Translations under genes and position numbers: made by a program | Part shown: one piece after another, positions 1-21,196 of the stretch | Position numbering within the stretch: the stretch's first letter is position 1 | Layout: each line of letters opens with the position of its first letter | Notes under the pieces: generated by a model | Database searches by the model: none | What the model was told of the DNA's origin: nothing | Seen by the model: only the letters and a program-made list of their open reading frames with translations | Assembly: GCA_017434555.1 (NCBI GenBank) | Contig: JAFRFB010000034.1 | Location: 1-34,705 of the forward strand | Source: Methanobrevibacter sp. | GTDB lineage: Archaea > Methanobacteriota > Methanobacteria > Methanobacteriales > Methanobacteriaceae | Direction of reading: 5' to 3' | Length of the DNA stretch: 34,705 nucleotides

Positions 1-306
1 CATATGTCCACCAGTCCATACATCCATCCATCAGTCCATTTGCAGTCCACACTTCAGTCCATCCACAACCATGTCCATAAACAGTCCATCGAACAGTCCA
101 TAAAATATCCATTAGGTAGTCCATAAACAGTCCACACAATAGTCCATAGTTAGTCCATCATATAGTCCATAAAGTGTCCATTAGTATGTCCATAAACAGT
201 CCACTGTATAGTCCATCATATCCACGAGGCAGTCCATAAACAGTCCATTGAGTAGTCCATAATATGTCCATTCTCATGTATATCAAGTCCAATATATTGT
301 CCAAAC
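1..306. repeat. GTCCA short-motif array (about 23 copies)
   Basis: GTCCA, usually as AGTCCAT, occurs about 23 times by eye in roughly 305 bases, all in the same orientation and mostly 10-20 bases apart. A longer unit, CATAAACAGTCCA, recurs four times. No sustained open frame explains the pattern. It lies just downstream of the minus-strand terminase large-subunit gene, before whatever gene follows to the left of the window. An array of one oriented short motif suggests binding sites for a multimeric protein. A packaging (pac) site read by the small terminase is the obvious idea given the neighbours, but that is inference. Confidence 0.8.
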
Positions 307-3795: not shown

Positions 3796-3889
3796 AATAA
3801 CTATTTTTCAAAAAAGCGCAAGCTACAAAATAATTACCGTCAATACTAATATAATTGATACCTGCTCTTTACTTTTAATTAAATCAATG

Positions 3890-4002
3890 GACATTAACAT
3901 TAACGGCCGTGATTCCCAATTTGAATTTAGATTTCAAACTGCGATATATATGAAAGCGTTCTGGAAAAGAAGTTTTGAATAGCTGATGGTGGATGTTAAT
4001 GT
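3890..4002 (+). repeat. Dispersed 110-bp element, copy 1
   Basis: The left arm is ACATTAACATTAACGG at 3891-3906 and the right arm GTTAATGT at 3995-4002. The internal hairpin pairs TTTCA (3932-3936) with TGAAA (3951-3955) around the conserved core CTGCGATATATATG (3939-3952). It lies between the winged-helix gene and the restriction endonuclease, at the left edge of the restriction-modification cassette. All copies share this orientation. Confidence 0.8.
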
Positions 4003-4008
4003 TTTCAT

Positions 4009-4061: not shown

Positions 4062-5510
4062 ATGTCTAATTATCATTTTTTTAATAGGAAAGAGTTAGAA
4101 AGAATACTTGATGAATGCCTTAATAAAACATTAGGTGAAGTAGATAAAAATAATGTTTTTGAAATAACAAAGACACATCCTAAATATACTGGAATAGCTG
4201 GACATGTAATTGAGCAATCTGTATTAGGCTATCCTGCAGATACTAGACAGGAACCTGATTTGGATGTCGATGGTGTTAAAACAGAATTAAAAACAACGGG
4301 TATTAAATACATAAGGAATAATACTCAATTCGTTGCTAAAGAGCCTATGAGTATTACGGCCGTATCACCAGATATTATTGTTAATGAAACATTTGATGAT
4401 TCTAATTTTTGGCATAAGCTAGCTCATTTATTATTTGTTTATTATTTATATGATTCATCAACTACCGTTAAAGCTGCAGGCTATGCAGACTTCCCAATTA
4501 AAGGTTATCAATTTTATGAGTTCAATTCTGAAGATACAGAAATATTAAAGAATGATTGGGAAATAGTTAGAAACTTCATATCCTGCTTACAGGATAATTA
4601 TGACGATTATGAAGATGAATATCCAAGGATATCATATGAATTAAGACCTAAGTTAATGTATATTGATACAGCTCCTAAATGGCCAAACAATCCTAGATTC
4701 AGATTAAAGAGAAGTGTTGTATCTTCAATTGTACAAGATCACTTCGGTGAATCATTGGAACAATTACCTAAAACATATACTTCTTATTCTGAAATTAATG
4801 AAACCTGCCATAACTTAACAGAAGAATATAAAGGCAAACCTATTCATGAACTTATTGATTTATTAGATATCAGTGTTAAGACTGTTAATAAAGGTATTGG
4901 AGAGCATATAATTGTTAAAATGTTTGGTGGGAACTCTAAAAAAATGCAGAACATAAAACTGTTTAATAAATTGGGAATTATAGGAAAAACATTAACATTA
5001 ACGGAGAGAGGATTAAGAAAAGAAGATATGAAGTTATTCACAATTGATTTTAGTGAATTTACTGAAGATGCTGAATTTGAAGATTCACAAATCTATGATT
5101 ACTTTGCAAATAATAAATTCTTATGTATAATCTTCCAAAAGCCTCATGCTAATGCTAAATGGAATGATAATATCTTTTTAGGATTTAAAATGATTAATTT
5201 TGATGGTGACTTCATTGAGAATGATGTTCGCAATACTTGGGAGAGAATTAAAGATTTAGTTGTTAATGATAAACTAGAAGATGTTGTTGTCTTAGATAGG
5301 CATGGACAGCCACGTAGAAATAGAAGTGGTAATATAATGAGTGCTCCTAACTTCCCTAAAAGTTCTGAAGGAAATGTTTTTGTTAGAGGAACTAGCTCAA
5401 CATCTGATGTAAAACCATTGACATTAAACGGAATTAAAATGTATAGACAACAAATATGGGTTAAAGGTCTTTACATTGTTGAAAAATTAGATAGTGAAGA
5501 TTATATTTAA
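4062..5510 (+). CDS. Type II restriction endonuclease, Sau3AI/MutH family
   Basis: A double-strand DNA endonuclease of the MutH/Sau3AI fold. The N-terminal domain carries GIAGHVIEQSVLG (44-56), then D68, E75 and K77 in PDLDVDGVKTELKTT. The D-x6-E-x-K spacing is that of the MutH catalytic triad. Around residues 275-320 a second, degenerate copy appears (GIGEHIIVKMFGG) without the catalytic E-x-K, matching the two-domain plan of Sau3AI (catalytic plus regulatory half). The 482-residue length is also close to Sau3AI. Family members cut at or near GATC, so GATC specificity is a prediction only. The gene is convergent with its methyltransferase and overlaps its stop codon by four bases. Confidence 0.85.
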   Translation: MSNYHFFNRKELERILDECLNKTLGEVDKNNVFEITKTHPKYTGIAGHVIEQSVLGYPADTRQEPDLDVDGVKTELKTTGIKYIRNNTQFVAKEPMSITAVSPDIIVNETFDDSNFWHKLAHLLFVYYLYDSSTTVKAAGYADFPIKGYQFYEFNSEDTEILKNDWEIVRNFISCLQDNYDDYEDEYPRISYELRPKLMYIDTAPKWPNNPRFRLKRSVVSSIVQDHFGESLEQLPKTYTSYSEINETCHNLTEEYKGKPIHELIDLLDISVKTVNKGIGEHIIVKMFGGNSKKMQNIKLFNKLGIIGKTLTLTERGLRKEDMKLFTIDFSEFTEDAEFEDSQIYDYFANNKFLCIIFQKPHANAKWNDNIFLGFKMINFDGDFIENDVRNTWERIKDLVVNDKLEDVVVLDRHGQPRRNRSGNIMSAPNFPKSSEGNVFVRGTSSTSDVKPLTLNGIKMYRQQIWVKGLYIVEKLDSEDYI

Positions 5511-6769
5511 TCTTCTTGTTCGACAACTGTTTCTAAATATTTTCCTAGCTTTTGAACAATACCAACGACTAAAGCGTTACCCATCATGAAATATCTTCTT
5601 CTTTCTGTCATAGCTTTAGATTCAACATTAGTCCAATTATCTGGAAACATTTGAATTCTTTCAGCCTCAACAGGAGTTAATGTTCTGTATATGTCATTAT
5701 CCTCATCAACGCCAATAATATGGGAACTTCTATTAGTTGTGCTTTCACTAGTAAGCATTGTTCTTGCAGGAACATCTAAATGGTCTGGGAACGCAATAGC
5801 TCCTTCTGAATAACAGTAAGTTTCACCGTTAGGTTTTTTCCTTTCAATTCTTTTAGAACCTTTCAAGTATTTCCATTTTTCAAGTTTTTCAGCAGAGATA
5901 ATATATTTATCATCCACATTACTTTCAAGGATATCTCCTAATGTTTTGGATTCACCGGAGTAATTAGGTTCTACTTTATAGGTATAAATATCTCCGTTAA
6001 TCATACAACCTGCATTTAAAAATGGAAATTTAAATTCTTCACTAATATAAACGATATCTTCATATTTAGATATGTTATTGTTGTCATCGCCTAAATCAAC
6101 ATCATTTATTGGAAATGTTGATGCAAAAATACCGTCATTATAAATAAGTTGTTTTGCAGGAACTTTAACCATCTTTTTAAAATAATTTGTAGATTCATGA
6201 TAAGCAAAAATAAATACTCTCCTCCTTCTTTGAGGAAAACCATATTCTGCTGCATTAATGACTCTCCATTCAACAGCATAACCATTATCTAAAAATGACC
6301 TTAACATTACTCCAAAATCACGTCCTCTTTGAGTTGAAGGTGATTTAAGTAATCTATCTACATTTTCAAGTAAAACAAATGGAGGAGTTCTAGCTTCTAA
6401 AACTCTAGCAATATCCCACCATAAAACTCCTTTCTTACCTTCAATACCTTTTTCATTTGATAATGACCTTGCTACAGAATAATCTTGACATGGAAAACCA
6501 CCAACTAAAAGAGTATGTTCTGGAATAATATCTATCTCTTCAGTTGTAATTTCATTAATGTCTTTACATACATGATTATCACTTTCGCCGAATCTTTCAC
6601 AATAACAATCAAATGCAGCTTGTGTTTTAGTGGATGGCTCCCATTGATTAGCCCAAACGAAATCCCAATTAGATTTTTCTGTAACTTCTTTACCGTCAAA
6701 AGTTACTTCATTAAATCCACAACGGAATCCTCCAACACCTGCAAATAATTCAACGACAGTTTTATCCAT
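5507..6769 (-). CDS. DNA (cytosine-5) methyltransferase, partner of the Sau3AI-like enzyme
   Basis: This enzyme transfers a methyl group from S-adenosylmethionine to cytosine C5 and protects host DNA from the endonuclease at 4062-5510. Motif I is FAGVGGFRCGF (9-19), motif IV GGFPCQDYS with nucleophile C94, motif VI ENVDR (135-139) and motif VIII QRRRRVFIF (180-188). Motifs IX and X are near the C-terminus (MGNALVVGIV). It is 420 residues, full length for the family. The start is supported by GGAG 8 bases upstream. The methylase has its own promoter on the opposite strand, so the two genes converge; collision or antisense could tune their ratio. Sequence specificity cannot be read from the sequence alone. 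Confidence 0.93.
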   Translation of the reverse strand: MDKTVVELFAGVGGFRCGFNEVTFDGKEVTEKSNWDFVWANQWEPSTKTQAAFDCYCERFGESDNHVCKDINEITTEEIDIIPEHTLLVGGFPCQDYSVARSLSNEKGIEGKKGVLWWDIARVLEARTPPFVLLENVDRLLKSPSTQRGRDFGVMLRSFLDNGYAVEWRVINAAEYGFPQRRRRVFIFAYHESTNYFKKMVKVPAKQLIYNDGIFASTFPINDVDLGDDNNNISKYEDIVYISEEFKFPFLNAGCMINGDIYTYKVEPNYSGESKTLGDILESNVDDKYIISAEKLEKWKYLKGSKRIERKKPNGETYCYSEGAIAFPDHLDVPARTMLTSESTTNRSSHIIGVDEDNDIYRTLTPVEAERIQMFPDNWTNVESKAMTERRRYFMMGNALVVGIVQKLGKYLETVVEQED

Positions 6770-7443: not shown

Positions 7444-7482
7444 AAATTAATAGCTACTTTTTTAGATTCGATTTAATGAGAT

Positions 7483-7594
7483 GACATTAACATTAACGGA
7501 AGCCCTTCCATAAATCAATCCCGTTTTACACTGCGATATATATGAAAGGGTTTCAGAAAATAAGTTTTGAATAGCTAATAGCTGACGTTAATGT
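7483..7594 (+). repeat. Dispersed 110-bp element, copy 2
   Basis: The left arm ACATTAACATTAACGG is at 7484-7499 and the right arm CGTTAATGT at 7586-7594. The internal stem pairs CCC (7520-7522) and T-rich bases with AAAGGG (ending 7550) around CTGCGATATATATG (7531-7544). The segment before the right arm (AGTTTTGAATAGCT) is nearly identical to that in copy 1. It lies between two convergent genes, 24 bases... after the DUF2958-like stop region and immediately before the stop codon at 7597. Confidence 0.8.
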
Positions 7595-7596
7595 TG

Positions 7597-7834: not shown

Positions 7835-8644
7835 TTAACTTGAATATAAATCTGTAAATATCCATGATGGATCATATGCTATGAGGTATCCGTCTTCACA
7901 CCAGATGGATCTAACATTTCCTGAAGTTGTATCTGCTACTGCTGCAGGGTCACGGTTGATCCAGTTTCCGGATGTATGTTTGGAATGTCTCAGCCTTAAT
8001 CTGATATGGCCAGTTCCTGAAACTCTACATTTAACATGGACAAACTGCACATCATAGCCTAAGCTTTTGGCAATGCGGTAATATACTTGTCCCCAGTCTA
8101 CACAGTTGGAGCCTTTGCCTTTACTACCGTCATTTATTGTTTGTTTATCTGTTTTTTGTGAATCGAAGTATTTGCTATATAATTTCTTCTTTGCTATAAT
8201 AGCTAAGGCCTCATCAATGGTATTGCCTTTAAAACTGAATGTTTTGATAAAGAAATTCATTGTGGTGTCTTTATAGTCTGGTAATGTTGATTTCCTATAT
8301 ACTATTGCAGGATATCTTCCATTAGCTTTAATGAATGCTTCAGTCCTTATGGCCATGTCCACATATTCAGCTTTATCTATTTGAGTTCCATCCTTTAGTG
8401 TTACATAGTTTGGAAGGAAGTCTAAAGACGTGTTATCTTTAATGACTGCCATTGTATACATAGCTACTAGCTTATCATCGCCTAATTTTTTCGCGCGCTT
8501 TTCTACATCGGCGCAACTACCTTTTAGTTTGAATATCTGGTAGTAATCACGCTTCTTATATTTCTTTTTGTTCTGGATTAACCAGTAGGCAATCGAATTC
8601 ATGCCCTGGCAAAAGCTTGTCCAGATTATACTATTACTTGACAT
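7835..8644 (-). CDS. Pseudomurein endoisopeptidase (PeiP/PeiW-like lysis enzyme)
   Basis: This enzyme cleaves the isopeptide cross-link of pseudomurein and lyses the host at the end of infection. C181 (GSNCVDWGQ), H213 (TGHIRLRL) and D232 (NRDPAAV) form the Cys-His-Asp triad of the C71/transglutaminase-like fold known from the PeiP and PeiW enzymes of methanobacterial viruses. The N-terminal part holds a pseudomurein-binding repeat (about 88-116: IDKAEYVDMAIRTEAF followed by IKANGRYPAIV) and a more degenerate one before it. At 269 residues it is slightly short for PeiW-type enzymes. No Shine-Dalgarno is present; AT-rich TATA-like DNA sits directly upstream, consistent with a leaderless message. 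This gene is the best host marker in the window. Confidence 0.9.
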   Translation of the reverse strand: MSSNSIIWTSFCQGMNSIAYWLIQNKKKYKKRDYYQIFKLKGSCADVEKRAKKLGDDKLVAMYTMAVIKDNTSLDFLPNYVTLKDGTQIDKAEYVDMAIRTEAFIKANGRYPAIVYRKSTLPDYKDTTMNFFIKTFSFKGNTIDEALAIIAKKKLYSKYFDSQKTDKQTINDGSKGKGSNCVDWGQVYYRIAKSLGYDVQFVHVKCRVSGTGHIRLRLRHSKHTSGNWINRDPAAVADTTSGNVRSIWCEDGYLIAYDPSWIFTDLYSS

Positions 8645-8774: not shown

Positions 8775-9130
8775 TTGCAATTCCTGTTGCAACTATTGCA
8801 ATTTTGTTGCAACTCTATTGCAATCCGATTGCAACTCATGAAATTTTCACTATGAAATCTGAAATTGGAGTTGCAATTATTGCAATTTTTTATTATTAGT
8901 TTGTTCAATATTTTTTAATATATTTTAAAAAAACTGAACAATTGTAATTTTAAGAAAGTTAAATTTAACGTCGAAGAGAAATTGCAATTTTGTTGCAATT
9001 TTCCATACATGAATTGCAATTTTGTTGCAATTAATTGCAATTTTAAAAATCCAATATATTGAAAATTGCAATTTTGACCCTATTTTCCTTGCAGTTGCAA
9101 TTCATTATTTTGGTGTTGCAATTATTGCAA
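8775..9130. repeat. Left iteron cluster: 17 TTGCAA motifs
   Basis: TTGCAA occurs 17 times by eye in 356 bases, often as the palindrome ATTGCAAT or as GTTGCAATT, with spacings from about 9 to 100 bases. Pairs such as ATTGCAATTTTGTTGCAATT recur. The six-base core is itself palindromic, so each motif could bind a symmetric dimer. The density far exceeds chance for a hexamer with two G/C bases. Confidence 0.85.
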
Positions 9131-9150
9131 TTGTGAATGTATGTACGAAT

Positions 9151-9348
9151 GTATATAAATTATTGTACTACCTAGCGAAAGTGCAGTATGTCCAGTGGCA
9201 CATCTGTATGTCTTGGGACCCCCCTCTGAGGAGGGTCTGCTGGCATACCAAGGAAATGTATGTAATACACTATAAGTATTACAATACTTACACCTTCCTG
9301 CAAGCAGACAGCATACCTTGAAAAATAAATTTTGTCGTTTCTTTTTTT
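9151..9348 (+). ncRNA. Candidate structured RNA between the iteron clusters
   Basis: A TATA box (GTATATAAAT, 9151-9160) predicts a start near 9180-9185. A T-tract at 9338-9348 could end transcription, giving an RNA of about 165 nt. Stems visible are GTATG(T)CCAG 9186-9195 with CTGGCATAC 9240-9248; GACCC 9217-9221 with GGGTC 9233-9237; GTCTGC 9235-9240 with GCAGAC 9304-9309; AGGAA 9251-9255 with TTCCT 9295-9299; and TGTAATAC 9261-9268 with GTATTACA 9276-9283. The first two stems compete with the third, so two alternative folds exist. No known family is recognised. A copy-control or origin RNA is inference; a cruciform acting as DNA is the alternative. Confidence 0.5.
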
Positions 9349-9392
9349 AAAAAAAATCCAAAATTAAACAGTATTCAACATTTGTTCAAAAG

Positions 9393-9472
9393 TTGCAATT
9401 CCAAAATTTGAGTTGCAATTCCTATTGCAACTGTTGCAATATTTGTTGCAATCAAGTTGCAATTAATTGCAA
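9393..9472. repeat. Right iteron cluster: 7 TTGCAA motifs
   Basis: Seven TTGCAA motifs lie in 80 bases. They match those of the left cluster and end about 58 bases before the ATG at 9531. Their position makes them possible operators for the coiled-coil gene as well as part of a replication or partition locus. Confidence 0.85.
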
Positions 9473-9530
9473 TAGCTATAAAATATAGTTGTGATAAAAC
9501 TATGTATGTTAAGGATTTGGAGTGAAAGTG

Positions 9531-10631
9531 ATGGATGAAAAAACACTTGAAAAAAATGATCATGCAATTGGTCAGGAATTCGAAGTTAAGAAAAATACTG
9601 CTAACGCTAATAGGATAGGATTCAGCAATACTGTTTTTGGAGTTGGAGAAAAAGTCTATGTCCTATCAGAAAAAGAACATAAGAATGTAGTCCAACAATT
9701 AAACCAGGTAGATGAATATAAGGCCAGAATCAAAGAACTTGAAGCTGACATTAACGATGAAGATTTGAAAGGTGAACTTCAAGAAAAGGATGCAATGATT
9801 GCAAACCTTAAAGCAAGAGTTGACAATCTTGGAAAAGAACTGGAAGAATCTAAAGCACAGCCTAAAGTCTATGATAAGGATGAAATGGAAGAATTAAAAG
9901 AAGAACTTGAAAATGCTAAGGCCAAATGTAAGTACTGGAAAAATTCATTTGAAAATATAATGGAATCTTCAGATGGACTTGCAGCTAGAAATGAAGAATT
10001 GATTAGTGAAAATAATCAATTGAAAGATGCCAATAATAAAATCAATGAAACCAATAAGTTGCTGAATGATAATATCATTGCTTTAAATGCTAGCTTTAAA
10101 GAAACTAAAGACGAACTCCAATCCACTTTCGAGGTTAAAGAAAAAGATTATAGAGAAACCATTGAAAAACAACAAACACATATAGATGAATTAACCGAGA
10201 AAGTACAATCTCTTTCCATTCTTAAAGATTATATTTCCCCTAAGGAACATTACGCTGCACTTGAAGAATTAAAAGACAAAATCAAAGAAGTTGAACTGGA
10301 ACTTGACAAAGCTAAGGCTGAAGTTGATGTGAAACTCAAAACTCAGAAATCTGAAATGGATGTTAAACATACTGAAGAAAAAGCACAAATGCTAATAGCT
10401 TATACTCAAGAACTGAATGCACATAAATTAAAGTATAATGAACTTGCAAAAGACTATAACCATTTACTTGGAGATGCAAGCTCATTAACAAGAGTAAATA
10501 CATTATTCTCTGGAAGACATAAGACAATTGTTAAAGATAAGGAACCTGCGGAACTTGAAGAGATAGAGGTGGAAAAAGAACCAACAGATACAATTGAATA
10601 TGTCCCCAAAGATGAAATACATTTGATATAA
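9531..10631 (+). CDS. Long coiled-coil protein of unknown function
   Basis: About 366 residues. The start is set at the ATG of MDEKTLEKND because GGAG lies 8 bases upstream; a GTG three codons earlier is too close to it. After a non-helical head (1-50, with FGVGEKVYVLSEKE) almost the whole protein is heptad-like and charged (about 50-330), a long coiled coil. A short acidic tail follows (ELEEIEVEKEP). No enzymatic motif is seen. It directly follows the right iteron cluster and converges with the tandem ribbon-helix-helix gene. It could be a partition or scaffold-type protein or an anti-defence filament; the sequence alone does not decide. Confidence 0.6.
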   Translation: MDEKTLEKNDHAIGQEFEVKKNTANANRIGFSNTVFGVGEKVYVLSEKEHKNVVQQLNQVDEYKARIKELEADINDEDLKGELQEKDAMIANLKARVDNLGKELEESKAQPKVYDKDEMEELKEELENAKAKCKYWKNSFENIMESSDGLAARNEELISENNQLKDANNKINETNKLLNDNIIALNASFKETKDELQSTFEVKEKDYRETIEKQQTHIDELTEKVQSLSILKDYISPKEHYAALEELKDKIKEVELELDKAKAEVDVKLKTQKSEMDVKHTEEKAQMLIAYTQELNAHKLKYNELAKDYNHLLGDASSLTRVNTLFSGRHKTIVKDKEPAELEEIEVEKEPTDTIEYVPKDEIHLI

Positions 10632-10643
10632 ACTTAACGATAG

Positions 10644-11186
10644 CTATTCCGCATCTTCAATTGAATCCAGAATCTCATCCATCAATTTAGAAGTGTTAAT
10701 GTTATTTTCCTCACCTATTTCATATTCGATAACAGAACCAACTATGTTATCCAGGGATCTGTCTTGAATAGCTGAGATGACTCTTAATTTTTTGTGAGTA
10801 TCTGGATCTACTTTAACATTAATTCTTTTTCTTGGATTTCCTTTATCCAACATCTTATCGTTAATATCATAAGCACTATTGTCAATATCAATCTGTTTTA
10901 ACCAATCAAAGTCATTATTGTTGTCAAAAGATTCTTTAACATATTCAACAATATCCAATCTTTCAATCCGGCTTTCCAATATGGATGTTGCTATTGTTTC
11001 TAATGTAGTATCTTTTGCAGTAGCTATTACTTTCAATGCCTTATGAGTATTTGGAAATAGTTTGACTGTTATTTGTTTTTTAGGAAGCTCATTCATTTCA
11101 TTTAAGTAATCTTCACGTACCTGTCTTATTTTGTTTTCACGCTGAACCTGCTTTTCAATTAACTCATCAAATTTATCATTTGTCAT
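10644..11186 (-). CDS. Protein with two ribbon-helix-helix-like units
   Basis: 180 residues with an internal duplication. Unit 1 (about 37-75) is KQITVKLFPNTHKALKVIA followed by a second helix (DTTLETIATSILESRI). Unit 2 (about 119-155) is KRINVKVDPDTHKKLRVIS followed by DRSLDNIVGSVIEYEI. Both read strand, P-x-TH-K-L-[KR]-VI, helix, turn, helix, as in CopG/MetJ-type DNA-binding folds, so one chain may form a pseudo-dimer. A strong Shine-Dalgarno (GGAGGAGG) precedes the ATG. The gene lies 1.1 kb from the TTGCAA clusters, whose palindromic repeats would suit such a protein. A partition or replication-control role is inference; a plain repressor is the alternative. Confidence 0.7.
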   Translation of the reverse strand: MTNDKFDELIEKQVQRENKIRQVREDYLNEMNELPKKQITVKLFPNTHKALKVIATAKDTTLETIATSILESRIERLDIVEYVKESFDNNNDFDWLKQIDIDNSAYDINDKMLDKGNPRKRINVKVDPDTHKKLRVISAIQDRSLDNIVGSVIEYEIGEENNINTSKLMDEILDSIEDAE

Positions 11187-11369: not shown

Positions 11370-12308
11370 ATGATGAGCAAATATAAAAATAAGATAAATC
11401 CATTTGAAGATTTAAAATCAGATGCTCAAAATTCAAATTGTGGAATATATAAAATTACAAACCTGAAAAATAATAAAGCATACATTGGCCAATCAACCGA
11501 CATCAAACGTAGATGGATAAACCATAAACTTGAATTAAAAAACAATAGCCATAGAAACTCCCATTTACAAAATGCTTTTAATAAATATGGCGAAGAAGCA
11601 TTTGAATTTAGGATACTTGAAGAAACTTTTGAAGAAAACCTAGATGATGCTGAAGAATACTGGATTAATTATTTCGATTCAACAAATCCTAGAAAAGGTT
11701 ATAATCTTACATATGGAGGCAATAATTCTAAAATAAGAGAGGATATTCAGGAACAAATGAATCTAGTTAAAGAATTAAGGAAACAGGAAGCACATTATTT
11801 TAAAATGAGACATATCAACAATAATGGTGGCTTTACAAAATTATATGCAATGGCAAAAGAAAACAAATCTCAAAAAGAGGCATCAATAGAATTGGGGATA
11901 CCTCAAGTTTATATTCGAGAATATTTAAAAGAACAAGGGTTTTCTAGTTGGAATCAACTAATTAAACAAGCTAGAGGTTTAAAACATGATTATTCTCTCA
12001 TTGATGAAAAAGGAGGAGTTTTATTTATTATAGACCAATTCATCCAAGGTAAATCAATTAATACAATAGCTAAAGAGTTGAATGTTGGAAATAAACTTAT
12101 TAGTGACTATTTGGCTTTCAAAGGAATTAACTCTAGAGAAGCACGAAAATATATTTCTAAATGGGGGATTGAATTAGTATTGATGTATTTTGGTGGTGTA
12201 GATTATATTAAAAAGAATTTAAAACTTGGTTTATCAATGGATGAAATTTCTGAAGAATGTAAAATTCCTAAAGAAAGATTATCAAAATATTTGAAAGAAA
12301 ATAGTTAA
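11370..12308 (+). CDS. GIY-YIG homing-type endonuclease with three helix-turn-helix repeats
   Basis: 312 residues. The N-terminal nuclease (about 25-115) shows CGIYKITN, KAYIGQSTDIKRRW, NAFNKYGEEAFEF and the family signature ending GYNLTYGG. The C-terminal half has three helix-turn-helix-like units: SQKEASIELGIPQVYIREYL, SINTIAKELNVGNKLISDYL and SMDEISEECKIPKERLSKYL, each about 60-75 residues apart. They are a plausible DNA-recognition arm. AGAGGTG 6 bases upstream sets the start. Such free-standing nucleases spread by cutting alleles that lack them, often in viral genomes. No intron or intein is seen next to it. Confidence 0.85.
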   Translation: MMSKYKNKINPFEDLKSDAQNSNCGIYKITNLKNNKAYIGQSTDIKRRWINHKLELKNNSHRNSHLQNAFNKYGEEAFEFRILEETFEENLDDAEEYWINYFDSTNPRKGYNLTYGGNNSKIREDIQEQMNLVKELRKQEAHYFKMRHINNNGGFTKLYAMAKENKSQKEASIELGIPQVYIREYLKEQGFSSWNQLIKQARGLKHDYSLIDEKGGVLFIIDQFIQGKSINTIAKELNVGNKLISDYLAFKGINSREARKYISKWGIELVLMYFGGVDYIKKNLKLGLSMDEISEECKIPKERLSKYLKENS

Positions 12309-12457: not shown

Positions 12458-12571
12458 GACATTAACATTAACGGAAGGGTTATGGGATTTGAATTTGTAT
12501 TTTAAACCCCGATATATATGCACGAGTTTTTAAAAGTAGTTTTCCATTGGTTAATGGTGGCCGTTAATGTC
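12458..12571 (+). repeat. Dispersed 110-bp element, copy 3
   Basis: The left arm ACATTAACATTAACGG is at 12459-12474 and the right arm CCGTTAATGTC at 12561-12571. The core CCCCGATATATATG is at 12507-12520, flanked by AAAC (12504-12507) and GTTT (12526-12529), with further TTTTAAA-type pairing outside. The right arm runs into the last codons of the minus-strand gene at 12551-12952, so that protein's C-terminus is encoded by the element. Confidence 0.78.
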
Positions 12572-13156: not shown

Positions 13157-14083
13157 TTATGCCCTGAAATTACCTTTGATTATTCTATTAGGTGCGTTCA
13201 TTAACACACCGACGGAGGAAAGTATGAATAGTTTGGTATACATAGGTAATTCGTCTCTAATGTCTTTACGCATGAATTCAATTAATGGATAGAAATCGTA
13301 CATCTCACCATCAGGTCCTAAAGGAGCAACGGTTGTTCCTGTAGTTCTGGAGTAAAGTAATTTCATACCTGGGTTAATGTAGTCCATACCAATGTAAGTT
13401 TTGTCACCCATTTCAGAACCACCATCACAGACAGCAGTTCCTAAGATATCAATGTTGTCAACGCCATAATAGCTTTTGATTAGTTCAACCGGTTCAACTT
13501 GTCTGTTGCTTGAGAATATGTCAGATTTTAAAGTTGTTAATGATTTGTAGCTTACGGCCATGCTGTTTAAGTTAGCATAGCTTCCGGCTGATTCTTTGAA
13601 TTTCTCTTGAGCTTTGAGGATGGTCATTCCAGTATCGTCACCTGCTTGGAAGTTGTAGGTGGAAACTTTACTGGAGTTCATAATCATATCAATAGCTGCC
13701 TTTTCAATACTTCTACCAATAAGAATACCTACATCCTGTAACATGTCATTAACGCTGATTAAATTGGAATCAAGCATTTGAGCAGAAACGTTTAACACTC
13801 CACCGATAGTGTCAATGGATACAGTTTCACTGATTGGTTTTCTCACGTTTAATTCCTGAAGGGTTGCACCAGGAGCTATGTCTTTGGCCTCACCAAGCAC
13901 GCCTTTTTGAATAGCTTCCTCGATGTTGACTCTTTGGGACATGTAAGTATAATATTGTGAGTTTTCTTCAATCTCTTGCTTTGGTAAAAGTCTTGTGAAT
14001 TTCATCCACTTTGCGGAAGTATCGGCCACGATTTGGGCCATTACTTCATTTTGTACTTTTGCATCATTTCCTTTAGTTAACAT
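13157..14083 (-). CDS. Major capsid protein, HK97-fold-like, paralogue 1
   Basis: 308 residues. It starts with a helical N-terminal arm (KGNDAKVQNEVMAQIVADT), followed by an acidic E-loop-like segment (QYYTYMSQRVNIEEAIQKG) and a core with LGEAKDIAPGA and LNVRKPISETVSIDTIGG. A P-domain-like helix follows (MLQDVGILIGRSIEKAAIDMIM). The order and size fit HK97-type capsid proteins of tailed viruses. It is clearly homologous along its full length to the next gene upstream (14098-15036). AGGAGG, overlapping the end of that gene, sets the ATG. The two are co-transcribed and probably mix in the shell or occupy different positions (hexon versus penton). Confidence 0.8.
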   Translation of the reverse strand: MLTKGNDAKVQNEVMAQIVADTSAKWMKFTRLLPKQEIEENSQYYTYMSQRVNIEEAIQKGVLGEAKDIAPGATLQELNVRKPISETVSIDTIGGVLNVSAQMLDSNLISVNDMLQDVGILIGRSIEKAAIDMIMNSSKVSTYNFQAGDDTGMTILKAQEKFKESAGSYANLNSMAVSYKSLTTLKSDIFSSNRQVEPVELIKSYYGVDNIDILGTAVCDGGSEMGDKTYIGMDYINPGMKLLYSRTTGTTVAPLGPDGEMYDFYPLIEFMRKDIRDELPMYTKLFILSSVGVLMNAPNRIIKGNFRA

Positions 14084-14097
14084 TTAATATAATCCTC

Positions 14098-15036
14098 CTA
14101 AGGCCTGCAAGTACCTTTCAAAGCAAGACCTGGTTTGTTTAATAATATTCCTACTTTTGATTGTATAAATAATTTGGTATATTGAGGTAACTCATCGTAA
14201 ATGTCTTTACGCATGATTTCAATGATAGGATAGAAGTCTGCAATGTTTTCATCTGATGTAATTGGTGCAACAGTAGTTCCAGAAGATTTGGAATACAATA
14301 CTGTTAATGGAGCATTACGGAGATCAAAACCAATATAGTCTTTATCACCAATTAATGATCCGCCGTCAGCTTGAGTAGTTCCTAACAAGTCAATGTTATC
14401 AATACCGTAGTATTCTTTAATGTCTTCAACAGGCTGCACTAACTTGTTAGAACTGTAAGCTAATTGTTTAACGTATGATAATGTCTTATATGATTCGGCC
14501 ATTATTGTTAAATCTGCACCTGCTCCAGCATTACCTTTGAAAGCTTCCTGTGCTTTGATAACAAACTTACCGAAAGCATCCATTGTATCGTCAGTTTCAC
14601 TAGTATTGTAAACCGGAACATTTGGAGAGCTAATTAATGTATCGTAAATGTTATATTCAATACGGTTAGCAATAACAGTAGCTACATCACCTAATAAATC
14701 TTCAAATGAAACAATATCAGAATCAAACACATCCTTATTAACGTTAAGGACACCACCAACAGTATCAATGGAGATAGTGTCAGTTACTGGTTTTCTAATG
14801 TTTAACTCTTGAAGGCTTGCACCTGGAGCAATGTCTTTGGCCTCACCAAGTAAACCTTTTTTAATAGCTTCATCAAGATTAATGTTTTGTCTAAAGTAAG
14901 TATAATAATCAGAATTCTCTTTGATTTCTTGTTTAGGAAATAGTCTTGCAAGCTTCAACCTTTTTGCGGTTTCATCAGTAATAGTTTGAGCTATTACTTC
15001 ATTTTGTACTTTAGTATCATTTCCTTTTGTAATCAT
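14098..15036 (-). CDS. Major capsid protein, HK97-fold-like, paralogue 2
   Basis: 312 residues, similar from end to end to 13157-14083: both begin M[IL]TKGND-x-KVQNEV and share LGEAKDIAPGA-[TS]-LQELN and [YR]KDI-[YR]-DELP. The aligned middle differs more (for example VPVYNTSETDD here). The Shine-Dalgarno AAAGGTGAT lies 5 bases before the ATG, just after the cement gene. The intergenic spacing of 12-14 bases in cement, capsid 2 and capsid 1 marks one operon. Which paralogue is the main shell subunit cannot be told from sequence. Confidence 0.8.
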   Translation of the reverse strand: MITKGNDTKVQNEVIAQTITDETAKRLKLARLFPKQEIKENSDYYTYFRQNINLDEAIKKGLLGEAKDIAPGASLQELNIRKPVTDTISIDTVGGVLNVNKDVFDSDIVSFEDLLGDVATVIANRIEYNIYDTLISSPNVPVYNTSETDDTMDAFGKFVIKAQEAFKGNAGAGADLTIMAESYKTLSYVKQLAYSSNKLVQPVEDIKEYYGIDNIDLLGTTQADGGSLIGDKDYIGFDLRNAPLTVLYSKSSGTTVAPITSDENIADFYPIIEIMRKDIYDELPQYTKLFIQSKVGILLNKPGLALKGTCRP

Positions 15037-16315: not shown

Positions 16316-16424
16316 TGTAATTTATCAAACTTATGGTAATATCGATATAAAGATTATATAAAAAAACTTTTAATTAATCTTTAACATAAATTAATAACAG
16401 TTAATAATATTTGAGGATTTGGAT

Positions 16425-18512
16425 ATGAAGCTAACAGATAATGAAAAAAGAGAAATTGTCCAAATGATTGAGGACAATGAATCTATTCCCGATGATTATA
16501 GATTTAAACTTTTTGATAGTAATAGAAAAGTTGAATTAATCTGGGATGGAAAAACTAATGAAAAATCAAATGTTGTTTTACCTTTTCAGACAATAGAATG
16601 TATTGATGAACCTAGAAGAACTGGAACAACTTCTATTAGGCAGTCTGATTTGTTTAATTATGATAAAAGAGGTAGACAAATAAAAGGATGGTCTAATAAA
16701 TTAATTTGGGGAGATAACAAATTAATTTTAAGTAGTCTTAAAAATGGGCCGTTAAGACAAGAAATTGAAAAGCAGGGTGGAATAAAACTCATATATATTG
16801 ATCCACCATTTGATGTAGGTGCCGATTTTTCAATGAATATTGAAGTAGGTGATGAGTCTATCACTAAAAAATCTAATGTTCTTGAGGAAATAGCTTATAG
16901 AGATACTTGGGGAAATGGTTCTGATAGTTTTATTGCAATGATTTATGAGAGACTTTCTTTGATGAGAGATTTATTAGCTGATGATGGTACTATTTATGTT
17001 CACTGTGATTGGAGAGTTTCTGCATATATTCGTTTAATTTTAGATGAATTATTTGGTAAAGATAATTTTAGAAATGAAATTATTTGGTACTATTCTACTT
17101 TAGGTCGTCCAGATGACCGTTTTGCTTTAAAACATGACTCATTATTTGTTTATGGTAAATCTAAAAATACATTTTTTAATAAAGAAGGTGCTAAAGTACC
17201 TTACTCTGATGAATATATTAAGTCACACTTTAGAGATGTTGATGATGAAGGTAGACGTTGTAGAAAACGATTCGATGCTGGAAAATGGAGAATTTATTAT
17301 CCTGATGCAGGTATGATTCCAAATGATGTATGGGAAATCCCTTATGAAAATTCTATGTCAAAAAATAGAGTTAATTATCCTACTCAGAAACCAGAACAAC
17401 TTCTAGAAAGAATAATTAAATCTACAACCGTTGAAGGTGATCTTGTTGCTGACTTTTTCTGCGGTTCTGGAACAACAATGGCAGTTGCAGAGAAGTTAGG
17501 TAGAAAATGGATTGGTGCTGACTTAGGTAAATTTGCTATTCATACTACAAGAAAAAGAATGATTAAAATTCAAAGAGAATTAAAAGAATCTGGAAAAGAT
17601 TATAGAGCATTTGAAATTTTAAATCTTGGAAAATATGAAAGACAATATTATATGAATATTGACTCTGCATTACTTGATGAAAATCAAGAACAAGTAGTAT
17701 CTCAAAAAGAGAGAGAATTTAATTCTCTAATTTTATCTGCATATAAGGCAGAACCAATAAGCGGATTCAATACTTTAAAAGGTAACAAATTAGGTAGATT
17801 TGTTTCAATTGGACCTATTGACATGCCTGTATCAAGATTGTTTGTTGAAGAAGTTCTTAATGAATGTATCGAAAAACAATTAACAAAAGTAGATATATTA
17901 GGGTTTGAATTTGAAATGGGTTTATCTCCAGATATACAAGACCATGCTAAGGAAATAGGTATTGATTTAAATTTAAAATATATCCCTAAAGAGGTTTTCG
18001 ATAAAAGAGCTGTTGATAAAGATCAAGTGAAATTTTATGATGTTTCTTATATCGATGTAGATTACGAATTAAAAGATGATAAGATATCTATTGAATTAAC
18101 TGATTTTGCTGTTTTTTATAATCAAGACGAAAATAAAGTTCCAACTAGAAAAAATTCATCTGTACTTATAATTCGTAATGGTAATCTAATTAAAGTTAAA
18201 AATGTTGAAGGGGTTAATAAAGAAGAAACTATCACCGAAAGCTGGACTGATTGGATAGATTATTGGTCTATTGATTTTGATTACGAAAGCAAAAAAGAAA
18301 TTATTAGAGAAGGTGATGAAGAAATCTGGACAGGTAAATATGTTTTTGAAAATGAATGGCAAAGTTTCAGAACAAGAAATGATAGGACATTATTGTTAAA
18401 ATCTCCACCTTATCCAATGGAAAAAAGAAAAACAAAGATAGCTGTTAAAGTTGTAGACATATTTGGTAATGATACTATGAAAATAATTGAAGTAGATAAA
18501 GGAGGGAAATAA
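16425..18512 (+). CDS. mod: Type III restriction-modification methyltransferase (Mod)
   Basis: An adenine-N6 DNA methyltransferase of the beta class that also gives the type III complex its specificity. Motif IV is IYIDPPF (DPPF at about 126-129) and motif I is FCGSGTT (about 345-351), in the beta-class order. PTQKPEQLLERII precedes motif I. The gap between motifs IV and I seems short for a full target-recognition domain, while about 340 residues follow motif I, so recognition may lie partly in the long C-terminus. GAGG 8 bases upstream favours the ATG here over a TTG two codons earlier. Its stop shares one base with the res start (TAATG), so the two are coupled. Confidence 0.9.
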   Translation: MKLTDNEKREIVQMIEDNESIPDDYRFKLFDSNRKVELIWDGKTNEKSNVVLPFQTIECIDEPRRTGTTSIRQSDLFNYDKRGRQIKGWSNKLIWGDNKLILSSLKNGPLRQEIEKQGGIKLIYIDPPFDVGADFSMNIEVGDESITKKSNVLEEIAYRDTWGNGSDSFIAMIYERLSLMRDLLADDGTIYVHCDWRVSAYIRLILDELFGKDNFRNEIIWYYSTLGRPDDRFALKHDSLFVYGKSKNTFFNKEGAKVPYSDEYIKSHFRDVDDEGRRCRKRFDAGKWRIYYPDAGMIPNDVWEIPYENSMSKNRVNYPTQKPEQLLERIIKSTTVEGDLVADFFCGSGTTMAVAEKLGRKWIGADLGKFAIHTTRKRMIKIQRELKESGKDYRAFEILNLGKYERQYYMNIDSALLDENQEQVVSQKEREFNSLILSAYKAEPISGFNTLKGNKLGRFVSIGPIDMPVSRLFVEEVLNECIEKQLTKVDILGFEFEMGLSPDIQDHAKEIGIDLNLKYIPKEVFDKRAVDKDQVKFYDVSYIDVDYELKDDKISIELTDFAVFYNQDENKVPTRKNSSVLIIRNGNLIKVKNVEGVNKEETITESWTDWIDYWSIDFDYESKKEIIREGDEEIWTGKYVFENEWQSFRTRNDRTLLLKSPPYPMEKRKTKIAVKVVDIFGNDTMKIIEVDKGGK

Positions 18513-21196
18513 TGGCTCTTCCAATTGATTTTCCAAGTTCACCATATACTATCTTAAATCCAGATAATAGATGGTTTCCAGATGCAAAAACTCGTGAAAA
18601 AAATTTTAATCTAATACCTCCATTAGTAAATAAAATAAGACTTAAAGTTAAAGAATGGAGAGACAATGATTATGAAGGTGCTAGTGAAACTACAAAAGCA
18701 TTACTTCATTTTTGGTTTGAAGAAGAACATTGGATAGAAAATGCAAATGGAGAATTTTTTGAATTTAAATATTATTTTGCTCAAAGAGAATCTGTTGAAA
18801 CTATTATATATCTTCACGAAATAGCGAATGTTGAAGATAAATATGACTTAATAAAATTTGATAGTTCTGAAATTATCAAACCTGAAGATTTCCCTGAATC
18901 ATGGGCTCGTTTTGTAATTAAAATGGCAACAGGAAGTGGAAAAACAAAAGTTTTAAGTTTAATTTTAGTTTGGTCATTTTTCCATAAAACCTATGAAGAA
19001 CATTCAGATTTATCTAGAAATTTTTTAGTCATTACTCCAAACATTATTGTTTTAGATAGGATTCGTTCTGATTTTGAAAATCTTAAAACATTTTTTGCAG
19101 ATCCAATGCTTCCTGATGATGGTTATCAAGGTAGAAATTGGAAAACCGATTTTCAATTAGATGTTCATATTCAAGACAATGTAAATAAAAGAAATAAAAC
19201 TGGAAATATCTTTTTAACAAATATTCATAGAGTATATGATAGTGGATATAAAGAACCCTCATTTGATGATGAGAATACAATGGGATATTTCTTAGGTGAA
19301 AAGGCAAAAGATGTGAAAGAAGATCATGTCGATTTAGGAGATATTGTAAGAGATATAGATGAAATAATGGTTTTAAATGATGAAGCACATCATATTCACG
19401 ATAGTAAATTACAATGGTTTAAATCAATTGAAGATATTCATAATAATCTTAAACAAAAAGGAAATAAATTAGCTATGCAAGTTGATTTCACTGCAACCCC
19501 TAAAGATACTAAAGGGTTTATTTTTCCACAAACAGTTTCAGATTATCCTTTAGTTGAGGCTATCCATCAGAATATTGTGAAACAACCTTTCATTCCAGAT
19601 GATGAAAGTAGAAAAAAAATAAAGGAAATTGAATCCGTTAAAGTCGAAGAAAGATATGCTGATTATCTTGAAGTAGGTTATCAAGAATGGAAAAAAGCTT
19701 ATAGAGAACATATTGGCGTAGGTAAAAAAGCAGTTCTTTTTATAATGGTTGAAGATACTAAAAAATGTGATGCAGTTGCAGAATATCTTGAAGTAACTTA
19801 TCCTGAATTTGAAAATGCTGTTTTGACAATTCATACTAATGCAAAAGGTGATTTAAAAGATGGAAAATCTAGAAAAGCTAAAGAAGAATTAGATTTACTT
19901 AGAAAAGCAGCTAATGAAATTGATAGTATGGATAGTCCATATAAAGTAATCGTTTCAGTATTAGTATTAAAAGAAGGATGGGACGTTAAAAATGTAACTA
20001 CTATTGTTGGTTTAAGATCATTTACTTCAAAATCAAAAATCCTTCCTGAACAAACTTTAGGAAGAGGTTTAAGAAAAATGTATCGGGATAGTGAAGAAAA
20101 ACTCATGATAATTGGAACTGAACCATTTATGGACTTTATTGAATCTATTAAAAGTGAGGGGGTTAAATTGGGTAAAACTCAAGTTGGATCTAGTGGACCA
20201 GCACATGCAATGCGTATTGAAGTTGATTTAGATAATGAAAATAAAAACATTGAGGAATTAGATATTTTAATTCCAGAACTAGAACCTTCATTTTATACTG
20301 ATTTTATAAAGCTAAAAGAAATGGATGTTAGTAAATTTAAAGTTAATAAATTTGAAATAATCAATTATGGTGAAGAAGAACTCAGAGAAATTAATTTTAT
20401 TCACATTACTGATGATGATAAAAGAGAAACATTAACATTAAGTGGTGATAGGACTATTGATTATAGATCAATGCTTAGGTATTATGCTATTGTTATCTTA
20501 AAAGAAGCAAGATTAGTTTCAGGCAATACAACAGTCTATGGTAAATTAAGAGAATTTATTTCTAATTATTTATTTGAAGAACCTGTTAATTTAGAAGATC
20601 CTAATGTTATCAAAAATGTTTCTAGGAGAGAAGTTTCTAAAACCATACTTGATACTTTTATATATTATGTAACTAATATTACTACGGCTATTGTTCCTGA
20701 ACCAAAAATTAGGACTTGGAAATCAGTAGCTGATACAAAACCATTCATTGTTAAAGAACAGGGATATGTTGTACCTCAAAAATCAGTTTTTAATAAAATT
20801 ATTGGAGATAGTGGTTTTGAATTAACTTTTGCTGGAAAGTTAGAGGGATATAATGATGTTATTTCTTATGCAAAAAATTATCTTGCAATTCAATATCATG
20901 TTCAATATCAAGATAGAAATGGAAGAGTTTCAAAATACTACCCCGATTTCTTGGTTAAAACATCTCCTAATAAAGTATATATAATTGAAACAAAAGGTAA
21001 TGCTGACTTAGATGTTCCATTAAAACTTAAACGGTTGAAAAAATGGTGTAGTGATGTAAATTCCCAGCAAAACCAAATTACATATATTCCATTATATGTT
21101 GAACAAGAAAAATATGAAAAACAGCACATTACTTCGTTCAATGAATTAATTAAACTGTTTGAACATGAATTAAACTTCATGATTAATAACGATTAA
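18512..21196 (+). CDS. res: Type III restriction enzyme subunit (Res)
   Basis: 894 residues: an ATP-dependent helicase/translocase with a nuclease at the C-terminus. Helicase motif I is ATGSGKT (139-145) and motif II DEAH (290-293). DFTATP is motif III-like, and motifs V-VI include SVLVLKEGWDVKNV and LGRGLRKM. The endonuclease shows the PD-(D/E)xK pattern in YYPDFLVK...VYIIETKG near residues 808-832. It acts only in complex with Mod. No frameshift is seen, so the system looks intact. It converges with the winged-helix gene at 21228 after 31 bases. The strand-biased AATAGCT heptamer that marks the rest of the window is nearly absent here, suggesting separate acquisition. Confidence 0.92.
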   Translation: MALPIDFPSSPYTILNPDNRWFPDAKTREKNFNLIPPLVNKIRLKVKEWRDNDYEGASETTKALLHFWFEEEHWIENANGEFFEFKYYFAQRESVETIIYLHEIANVEDKYDLIKFDSSEIIKPEDFPESWARFVIKMATGSGKTKVLSLILVWSFFHKTYEEHSDLSRNFLVITPNIIVLDRIRSDFENLKTFFADPMLPDDGYQGRNWKTDFQLDVHIQDNVNKRNKTGNIFLTNIHRVYDSGYKEPSFDDENTMGYFLGEKAKDVKEDHVDLGDIVRDIDEIMVLNDEAHHIHDSKLQWFKSIEDIHNNLKQKGNKLAMQVDFTATPKDTKGFIFPQTVSDYPLVEAIHQNIVKQPFIPDDESRKKIKEIESVKVEERYADYLEVGYQEWKKAYREHIGVGKKAVLFIMVEDTKKCDAVAEYLEVTYPEFENAVLTIHTNAKGDLKDGKSRKAKEELDLLRKAANEIDSMDSPYKVIVSVLVLKEGWDVKNVTTIVGLRSFTSKSKILPEQTLGRGLRKMYRDSEEKLMIIGTEPFMDFIESIKSEGVKLGKTQVGSSGPAHAMRIEVDLDNENKNIEELDILIPELEPSFYTDFIKLKEMDVSKFKVNKFEIINYGEEELREINFIHITDDDKRETLTLSGDRTIDYRSMLRYYAIVILKEARLVSGNTTVYGKLREFISNYLFEEPVNLEDPNVIKNVSRREVSKTILDTFIYYVTNITTAIVPEPKIRTWKSVADTKPFIVKEQGYVVPQKSVFNKIIGDSGFELTFAGKLEGYNDVISYAKNYLAIQYHVQYQDRNGRVSKYYPDFLVKTSPNKVYIIETKGNADLDVPLKLKRLKKWCSDVNSQQNQITYIPLYVEQEKYEKQHITSFNELIKLFEHELNFMINND

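Follow-up and report, generated by a model that had tools for sequence, protein, structure and literature searches.

The question raised by this locus is what a tailed virus of methanogenic archaea does with 24 copies of the palindromic hexamer TTGCAA set between a lysis gene and a gene for a predicted coiled-coil protein. The copies lie in a 34,705-nucleotide contig from Methanobrevibacter sp., the whole of which we call the window, and an earlier note made from the sequence alone had read them as a possible origin or centromere of an element kept in a plasmid-like state. We give about even weight to the proposal that the array acts in segregation, as a centromere-like site, and that the virus persists in Methanobrevibacter-type methanogens as a circular plasmid.

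A phased array of palindromes

All 24 copies, 17 in a left and 7 in a right arm, are present as the earlier note had counted them (Table 1), and the 698 bp that hold them are the densest such stretch of the window, compared with 2.7 copies on average and at most 5 in 200 dinucleotide-preserving shuffles of the window and a maximum of 7 when the local region was shuffled on its own; the window as a whole contains 39 copies, with 18.8 expected. Across six related elements every one of the 118 array sites fits the extended palindrome RTTGCAAY, as against 44 of the 104 TTGCAA copies that lie outside the array in the same elements. Distances between array sites fall at 9–12, 20–23, 29–33, 41–44 and 50–54 bp, with a period of 10.5 bp (resultant 0.77–0.88) that holds even across gaps, and the array sites lie on one face of the DNA helix.

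Table 1. Features in and around the array (window coordinates)
Feature	Position	Strand	Remarks
Pseudomurein endoisopeptidase (Pei, lysis) gene	7835–8644	-	divergent neighbour
Left arm, 17 RTTGCAAY sites	8775–9130	.	start-to-start steps of 9–12 bp or whole-turn gaps (21, 29–31, 42, 102)
Secondary conserved motif in left arm	8901–8942	.	TTGTTCA (8901), TGAACAA (8935); third copy at 9382
Core between the arms	9131–9392	.	length kept, sequence drifted, in relatives
Right arm, 7 RTTGCAAY sites	9393–9472	.	directly upstream of the TATA-like box of the Coil gene
TATA-like box of the Coil gene, CTATAAAATATAG	9476–9488	+	read by eye; 3 bp past the last array site
Coil, 369-aa predicted coiled-coil protein	9522–10631	+	N-terminal ~35 residues highly conserved
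RHH180, 180 aa, two ribbon-helix-helix-like units	10644–11186	-	PHROG regulators, best E 4.5e-8

Comparison with the related elements G016, G046 and vir323 reveals that the array hexamers are 97–99% identical, the spacers 77–84% and the core 73–78%. The distance from the last left to the first right site, start to start, is 267–268 bp in three elements and about 277 bp in G016, and the two sites by which the right arm of vir323 is longer are also in phase. Taken together, flank constraint, phasing and conservation would be the marks of an array selected for protein binding. A search of 67 genomes of the genus for three sites spaced 9–12 bp apart located the array in five, as elements or fragments, and a lone triplet in a sixth (G067), while the reversed pattern gave zero matches in the same genomes. 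One contig (G057:C67; L038 3393–3480) carries the end of a lysis gene and four array sites followed by unrelated sequence, apparently either a truncated remnant or a recombination junction inside the array.

The GC-rich core, which the earlier note had described as foldable, does, as single-stranded DNA, fold better here than its shuffles (z -2.7 and -2.5), but relatives do not keep the GC hairpin near 9220–9245. An Rfam search of the core returned no match of note, and we do not retain RNA or single-stranded DNA structure as its function, few sequences being available for covariation.

A circular tailed-virus genome without an integrase

The ends of the window's contig (C21, 34.7 kb) are bridged by a second contig of the same genome (C136), which contributes 4,755 new bases and closes a circle of 39,460 bp; a long duplicated stretch that both contigs contain presumably reflects a second path through the assembly. 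Of this 39.46-kb circular tailed-virus genome the window covers 34.7 kb. Besides the array, the genome has genes for a terminase, a portal, two capsid proteins in tandem, collagen-like tail fibres, the pseudomurein endoisopeptidase and two restriction-modification systems. The two capsid paralogues (window 13157–15036) are about 57% identical and occur in nearly every family member seen.

The closest named relative is vir323 (Caudoviricetes sp., NC_133304.1 / BK063679.1), deposited as a circular sequence of 34,179 bp from a goat-faeces enrichment. Both have the same gene order, circular closure and closely similar TerL (94%), major capsid (95%) and portal (91%) proteins, and vir323 likewise carries the array (25 sites), Coil (vir323_00029), RHH180 (00028) and two further small proteins of 157 aa (00044) and 52 aa (00043). 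Our virus is a further member of the vir323 kind, whose annotation contains neither array nor cassette: the sites are unannotated and the proteins are labelled 'hypothetical'. In G016 the contig ends are inverted copies of GACTCTTTCAAAAACTTTGTTGATTT flanked by the 8-bp direct repeat GATTATTG, which indicates a circle that would be closed but for the break made by an apparent insertion sequence.

A profile search detected no integrase on any array-bearing contig. Virion genes and a circular map occur here with no integrase, the combination expected of a phage-plasmid, together with a conserved phased site array in cis, as expected of a partition locus. Judged from these sequences the element is apparently a free circle rather than an integrated one; circular assemblies can also come from circularly permuted virion DNA.

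Exchange of a module relative to integrated proviruses

The capsid protein is encoded in 32 of the 139 genomes of the host family, and we compared the five array-bearing elements with 31 array-less contigs. Coil and the 157-aa and 52-aa proteins are found in all five of the former and in none of the latter. Integrase and/or the early proteins of the G044 provirus (671, 204 and 166 aa) are found nearby in 11 of the 31 array-less contigs, a count limited by the many contigs that are short or have their flanks cut, and in none of the array-bearing elements. Integrated Methanobrevibacter-type proviruses (G044:C1 at ~1.775–1.83 Mb, G065:C79 and others) share TerL (91–92%), major capsid proteins (up to 99%), Pei and sometimes RHH180 with the array-bearing elements, but have an integrase and early module instead of the array, Coil, the 157-aa and 52-aa proteins and an oriC-like site described below. 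Since the lysis gene directly adjoins RHH180 in G044 and G065, the array and Coil form a cassette between these two. The array, the Coil, 52-aa and 157-aa genes and the origin-like site take the place of the integration/replication module of the proviruses, and this replacement, along with the circular contigs and the missing integrase, favours the plasmid-like maintenance and the centromere-like role proposed in the earlier note.

A TerL tree groups the array-bearing elements in a single clade (support 98/97), so that the maintenance features may occur together through one evolutionary event and not five. In the capsid tree the same elements are split, which forces at least two changes; the virus bodies recombine.

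Candidate array-binding proteins

The two genes that follow the array do encode a coiled-coil protein and a protein with two ribbon-helix-helix units, as previously described, but the suggestion that the latter binds the array fares poorly: RHH180 homologues 73–75% identical are present in the array-less proviruses G044 and G065, and none is present in array-bearing G012, a decayed or poorly assembled copy. Failing to co-occur with the array, RHH180 is disfavoured as its site-specific binder and is probably not essential to it. At the place that RHH180 occupies in relatives, G012 (C124; L037 15875–16554) has a ribbon-helix-helix plus PIN toxin-antitoxin-like pair beside Coil.

Three candidates for the binder are left, the 52-aa protein, the 157-aa protein and the N-terminal part of Coil, among which the data make no choice. 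The 52-aa protein is 96–100% identical in four elements and 73% in G046, and shows a weak match to Arc-like repressors (E 0.018–0.022). The 157-aa protein had suggested a ribbon-helix-helix fold by eye, which neither profile comparison nor a structure model supports, and the model has no PDB match. The N-terminus of Coil was likewise compared by eye to an AbrB-like domain, with no Pfam support; no DNA-binding fold was recognised in Coil, whose structure model is poor (pLDDT 62.7), and no homologue was found in a plasmid collection. The 52-aa and 157-aa genes map to the side of a second, smaller TTGCAA cluster, and Coil maps to the main array. In each of the five array-bearing elements this smaller cluster (3–4 sites) comes after the 157-aa gene; it lies near the oriC-like site in C136, G046 and vir323, with inserted genes between the two in G016 and G012.

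An origin-like sequence away from the array

Using a host origin recognition box (ORB) motif learned from the cdc6-upstream regions of six genomes, we identified an ORB-like site in each of the five array-bearing elements (scores 14.9–17.1), upstream of the portal gene, where nine proviruses score 4.7 or less. In the window's own element it lies outside the window, at about 1790–1850 of C136, and the circle places about 10.5 kb between it and the array. This site and the host cdc6-upstream region have in common two 19-nt words, AGGTATATTTCAAGTGAAA and TAATATATAATAAAGGTAT, and elsewhere in the 39-kb circle no match of at least 14 nt to that region was found. The site's matrix score of 16.8 is below those of the training host ORBs (19–29) and within the range of shuffled maxima; because single scores of this size occur in shuffled sequence, we place the weight on position and on the 19-nt identity. 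The GC skew of the circle tracks gene direction and is hence uninformative on the origin. Three strong host-ORB-like sites (scores 14.7–19.7) also occur near a contig end in G012 (C124 21709–21943; L072 1709–1943).

With the best host-ORB match upstream of the portal gene rather than in the array, we reject the array as a host-type origin and consider that replication probably starts outside it; of the two roles first envisaged for the repeats, that of origin is disfavoured. An unlikely variant would make the array an iteron-like replication origin or copy-number control site bound by an initiator or regulator of the element's own. Its site density is indeed iteron-like and its flanks AT-rich, no replication protein was recognised in an array-bearing element, and in the window's own element the second TTGCAA cluster lies within 120 bp of the oriC-like site; yet no Rep-family match was obtained for the array's neighbour genes, the only matches of 14 nt or more to the host oriC region are those upstream of the portal gene, no host-type ORB score in the array exceeds 12, and in G016 and G012 the small cluster and the oriC-like site have other genes between them.

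Transcriptional control and lytic functions as possible alternatives

The array fills a divergent intergenic region and runs up to the TATA-like box of Coil, which is conserved in G016, G046 and vir323 and whose position, 3 bp from the last array site, suggests Coil autoregulation. Together with the small cluster upstream of the portal gene, this arrangement could also describe a large operator at which cooperative binding silences or times the divergent Pei and Coil promoters. We find this quite unlikely: 24 phased sites over 700 bp are far above a usual operator, 130 bp lie between the first of them and the Pei start codon, and the proviruses have Pei (79–88% identical) without any array. 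Segregation and autoregulation are compatible rather than exclusive.

Least probable, and in our view improbable, is a virulent lifestyle, with DNA that is circularly permuted and terminally redundant and an array that takes part in lytic replication, in a phage nucleus-like or spooling complex, or in packaging instead of inheritance, since against the full set of head, tail, terminase and lysis genes, the circular maps that headful packaging predicts and the missing integrase stand the presence of the elements in cellular genome bins of several hosts, the location of TerS/TerL about 6 kb from the array and the working of the same terminases in array-less proviruses, the toxin-antitoxin-like pair in G012, typical of stably inherited elements, and the insertion sequence in G016 and frameshifted genes in G012, which suggest residence and decay.

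A proposed centromere-like segregation site

In the centromere-like reading, a sequence-specific protein (the Arc-like 52-aa protein, the 157-aa protein or the N-terminal part of Coil) would bind the 24 RTTGCAAY palindromes and, because the sites share one helix face, could form one continuous nucleoprotein complex, its two arms separated by a spacer whose length is nearly constant. Coil, expressed from the promoter abutting the right arm and autoregulated, might tether, pair or space the circles, whereas replication would start at the oriC-like site upstream of the portal gene by recruiting host Orc1/Cdc6.

Two bacterial systems offer parallels. In the type II partition system ParMRC of plasmid R1, the parC locus consists of two clusters of sites spaced by about 11 bp around a spacer, beside a promoter, and these sites are bound by a small ribbon-helix-helix protein. 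The present array resembles parC in its two site clusters around a spacer next to a promoter, but has an inverted-symmetric 8-bp site in 17 + 7 copies, an adjoining coiled-coil gene and no detected actin-like ParM. The staphylococcal pSK1 Par system relies on a single coiled-coil partition protein, whose own gene is preceded by repeats, and lacks a recognised NTPase; the locus described here shares all three traits, although no sequence relation was detected and Coil is without a recognised DNA-binding domain. Given the lack of sequence relation and of a motor protein, we do not file the array in either family. No Pfam match to a ParA, actin-like (ParM) or tubulin-like (TubZ) motor was found among the scanned ORFs, which excludes partition types I–III but not partition as such, because motor-less partition systems exist. 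Counting against segregation are the absence of a recognised motor, a Coil protein with no recognised DNA-binding fold, and the confinement of the array to one TerL clade.

Our searches of the literature returned no description of the array. More tentatively, and with doubt outweighing confidence, we propose a kind of segregation system that would be novel for archaeal viruses, one that works without a motor and in which a helically phased palindrome array, a coiled-coil protein and a very small Arc-like binder, along with a copy of a host origin element, would replace integrase and replication genes and turn an integrating virus family into plasmids. If so, sister virus groups would differ in how they persist, integrated or as free circles, the DNA responsible for persistence would be narrowed to the array, three small genes and the origin-like site, and an archaeal virus would possess a segregation system without a known motor. 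A stable maintenance module with a host-type origin could furthermore be of use in vectors for methanogens of the rumen and gut, for which genetic tools are few.

Variable regions of the virus genomes

Accessory genes differ between the window and vir323. The restriction-modification genes of the window comprise a MutH-like endonuclease with a C5 methyltransferase and a type III-like Mod/Res pair (4062–6769 and 16419–21196), and relatives carry different systems at comparable places. A GIY-YIG homing endonuclease-like gene (window 11370–12308) is also present in vir323 and was not found in G016 or G046. A dispersed repeat of ~150 bp (window 3853–4003, 7445–7595 and 12458–12570; copies 73–75% identical) adjoins accessory cassettes such as the restriction-modification genes and the homing endonuclease and recurs at the G046 contig ends, which suggests cassette exchange via recombination. 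Finally, a TGGACTG-rich, repetitive non-coding stretch follows the large terminase gene (C136 1–440, L030; window 1–270), is also seen in G046, and is where the contigs break.
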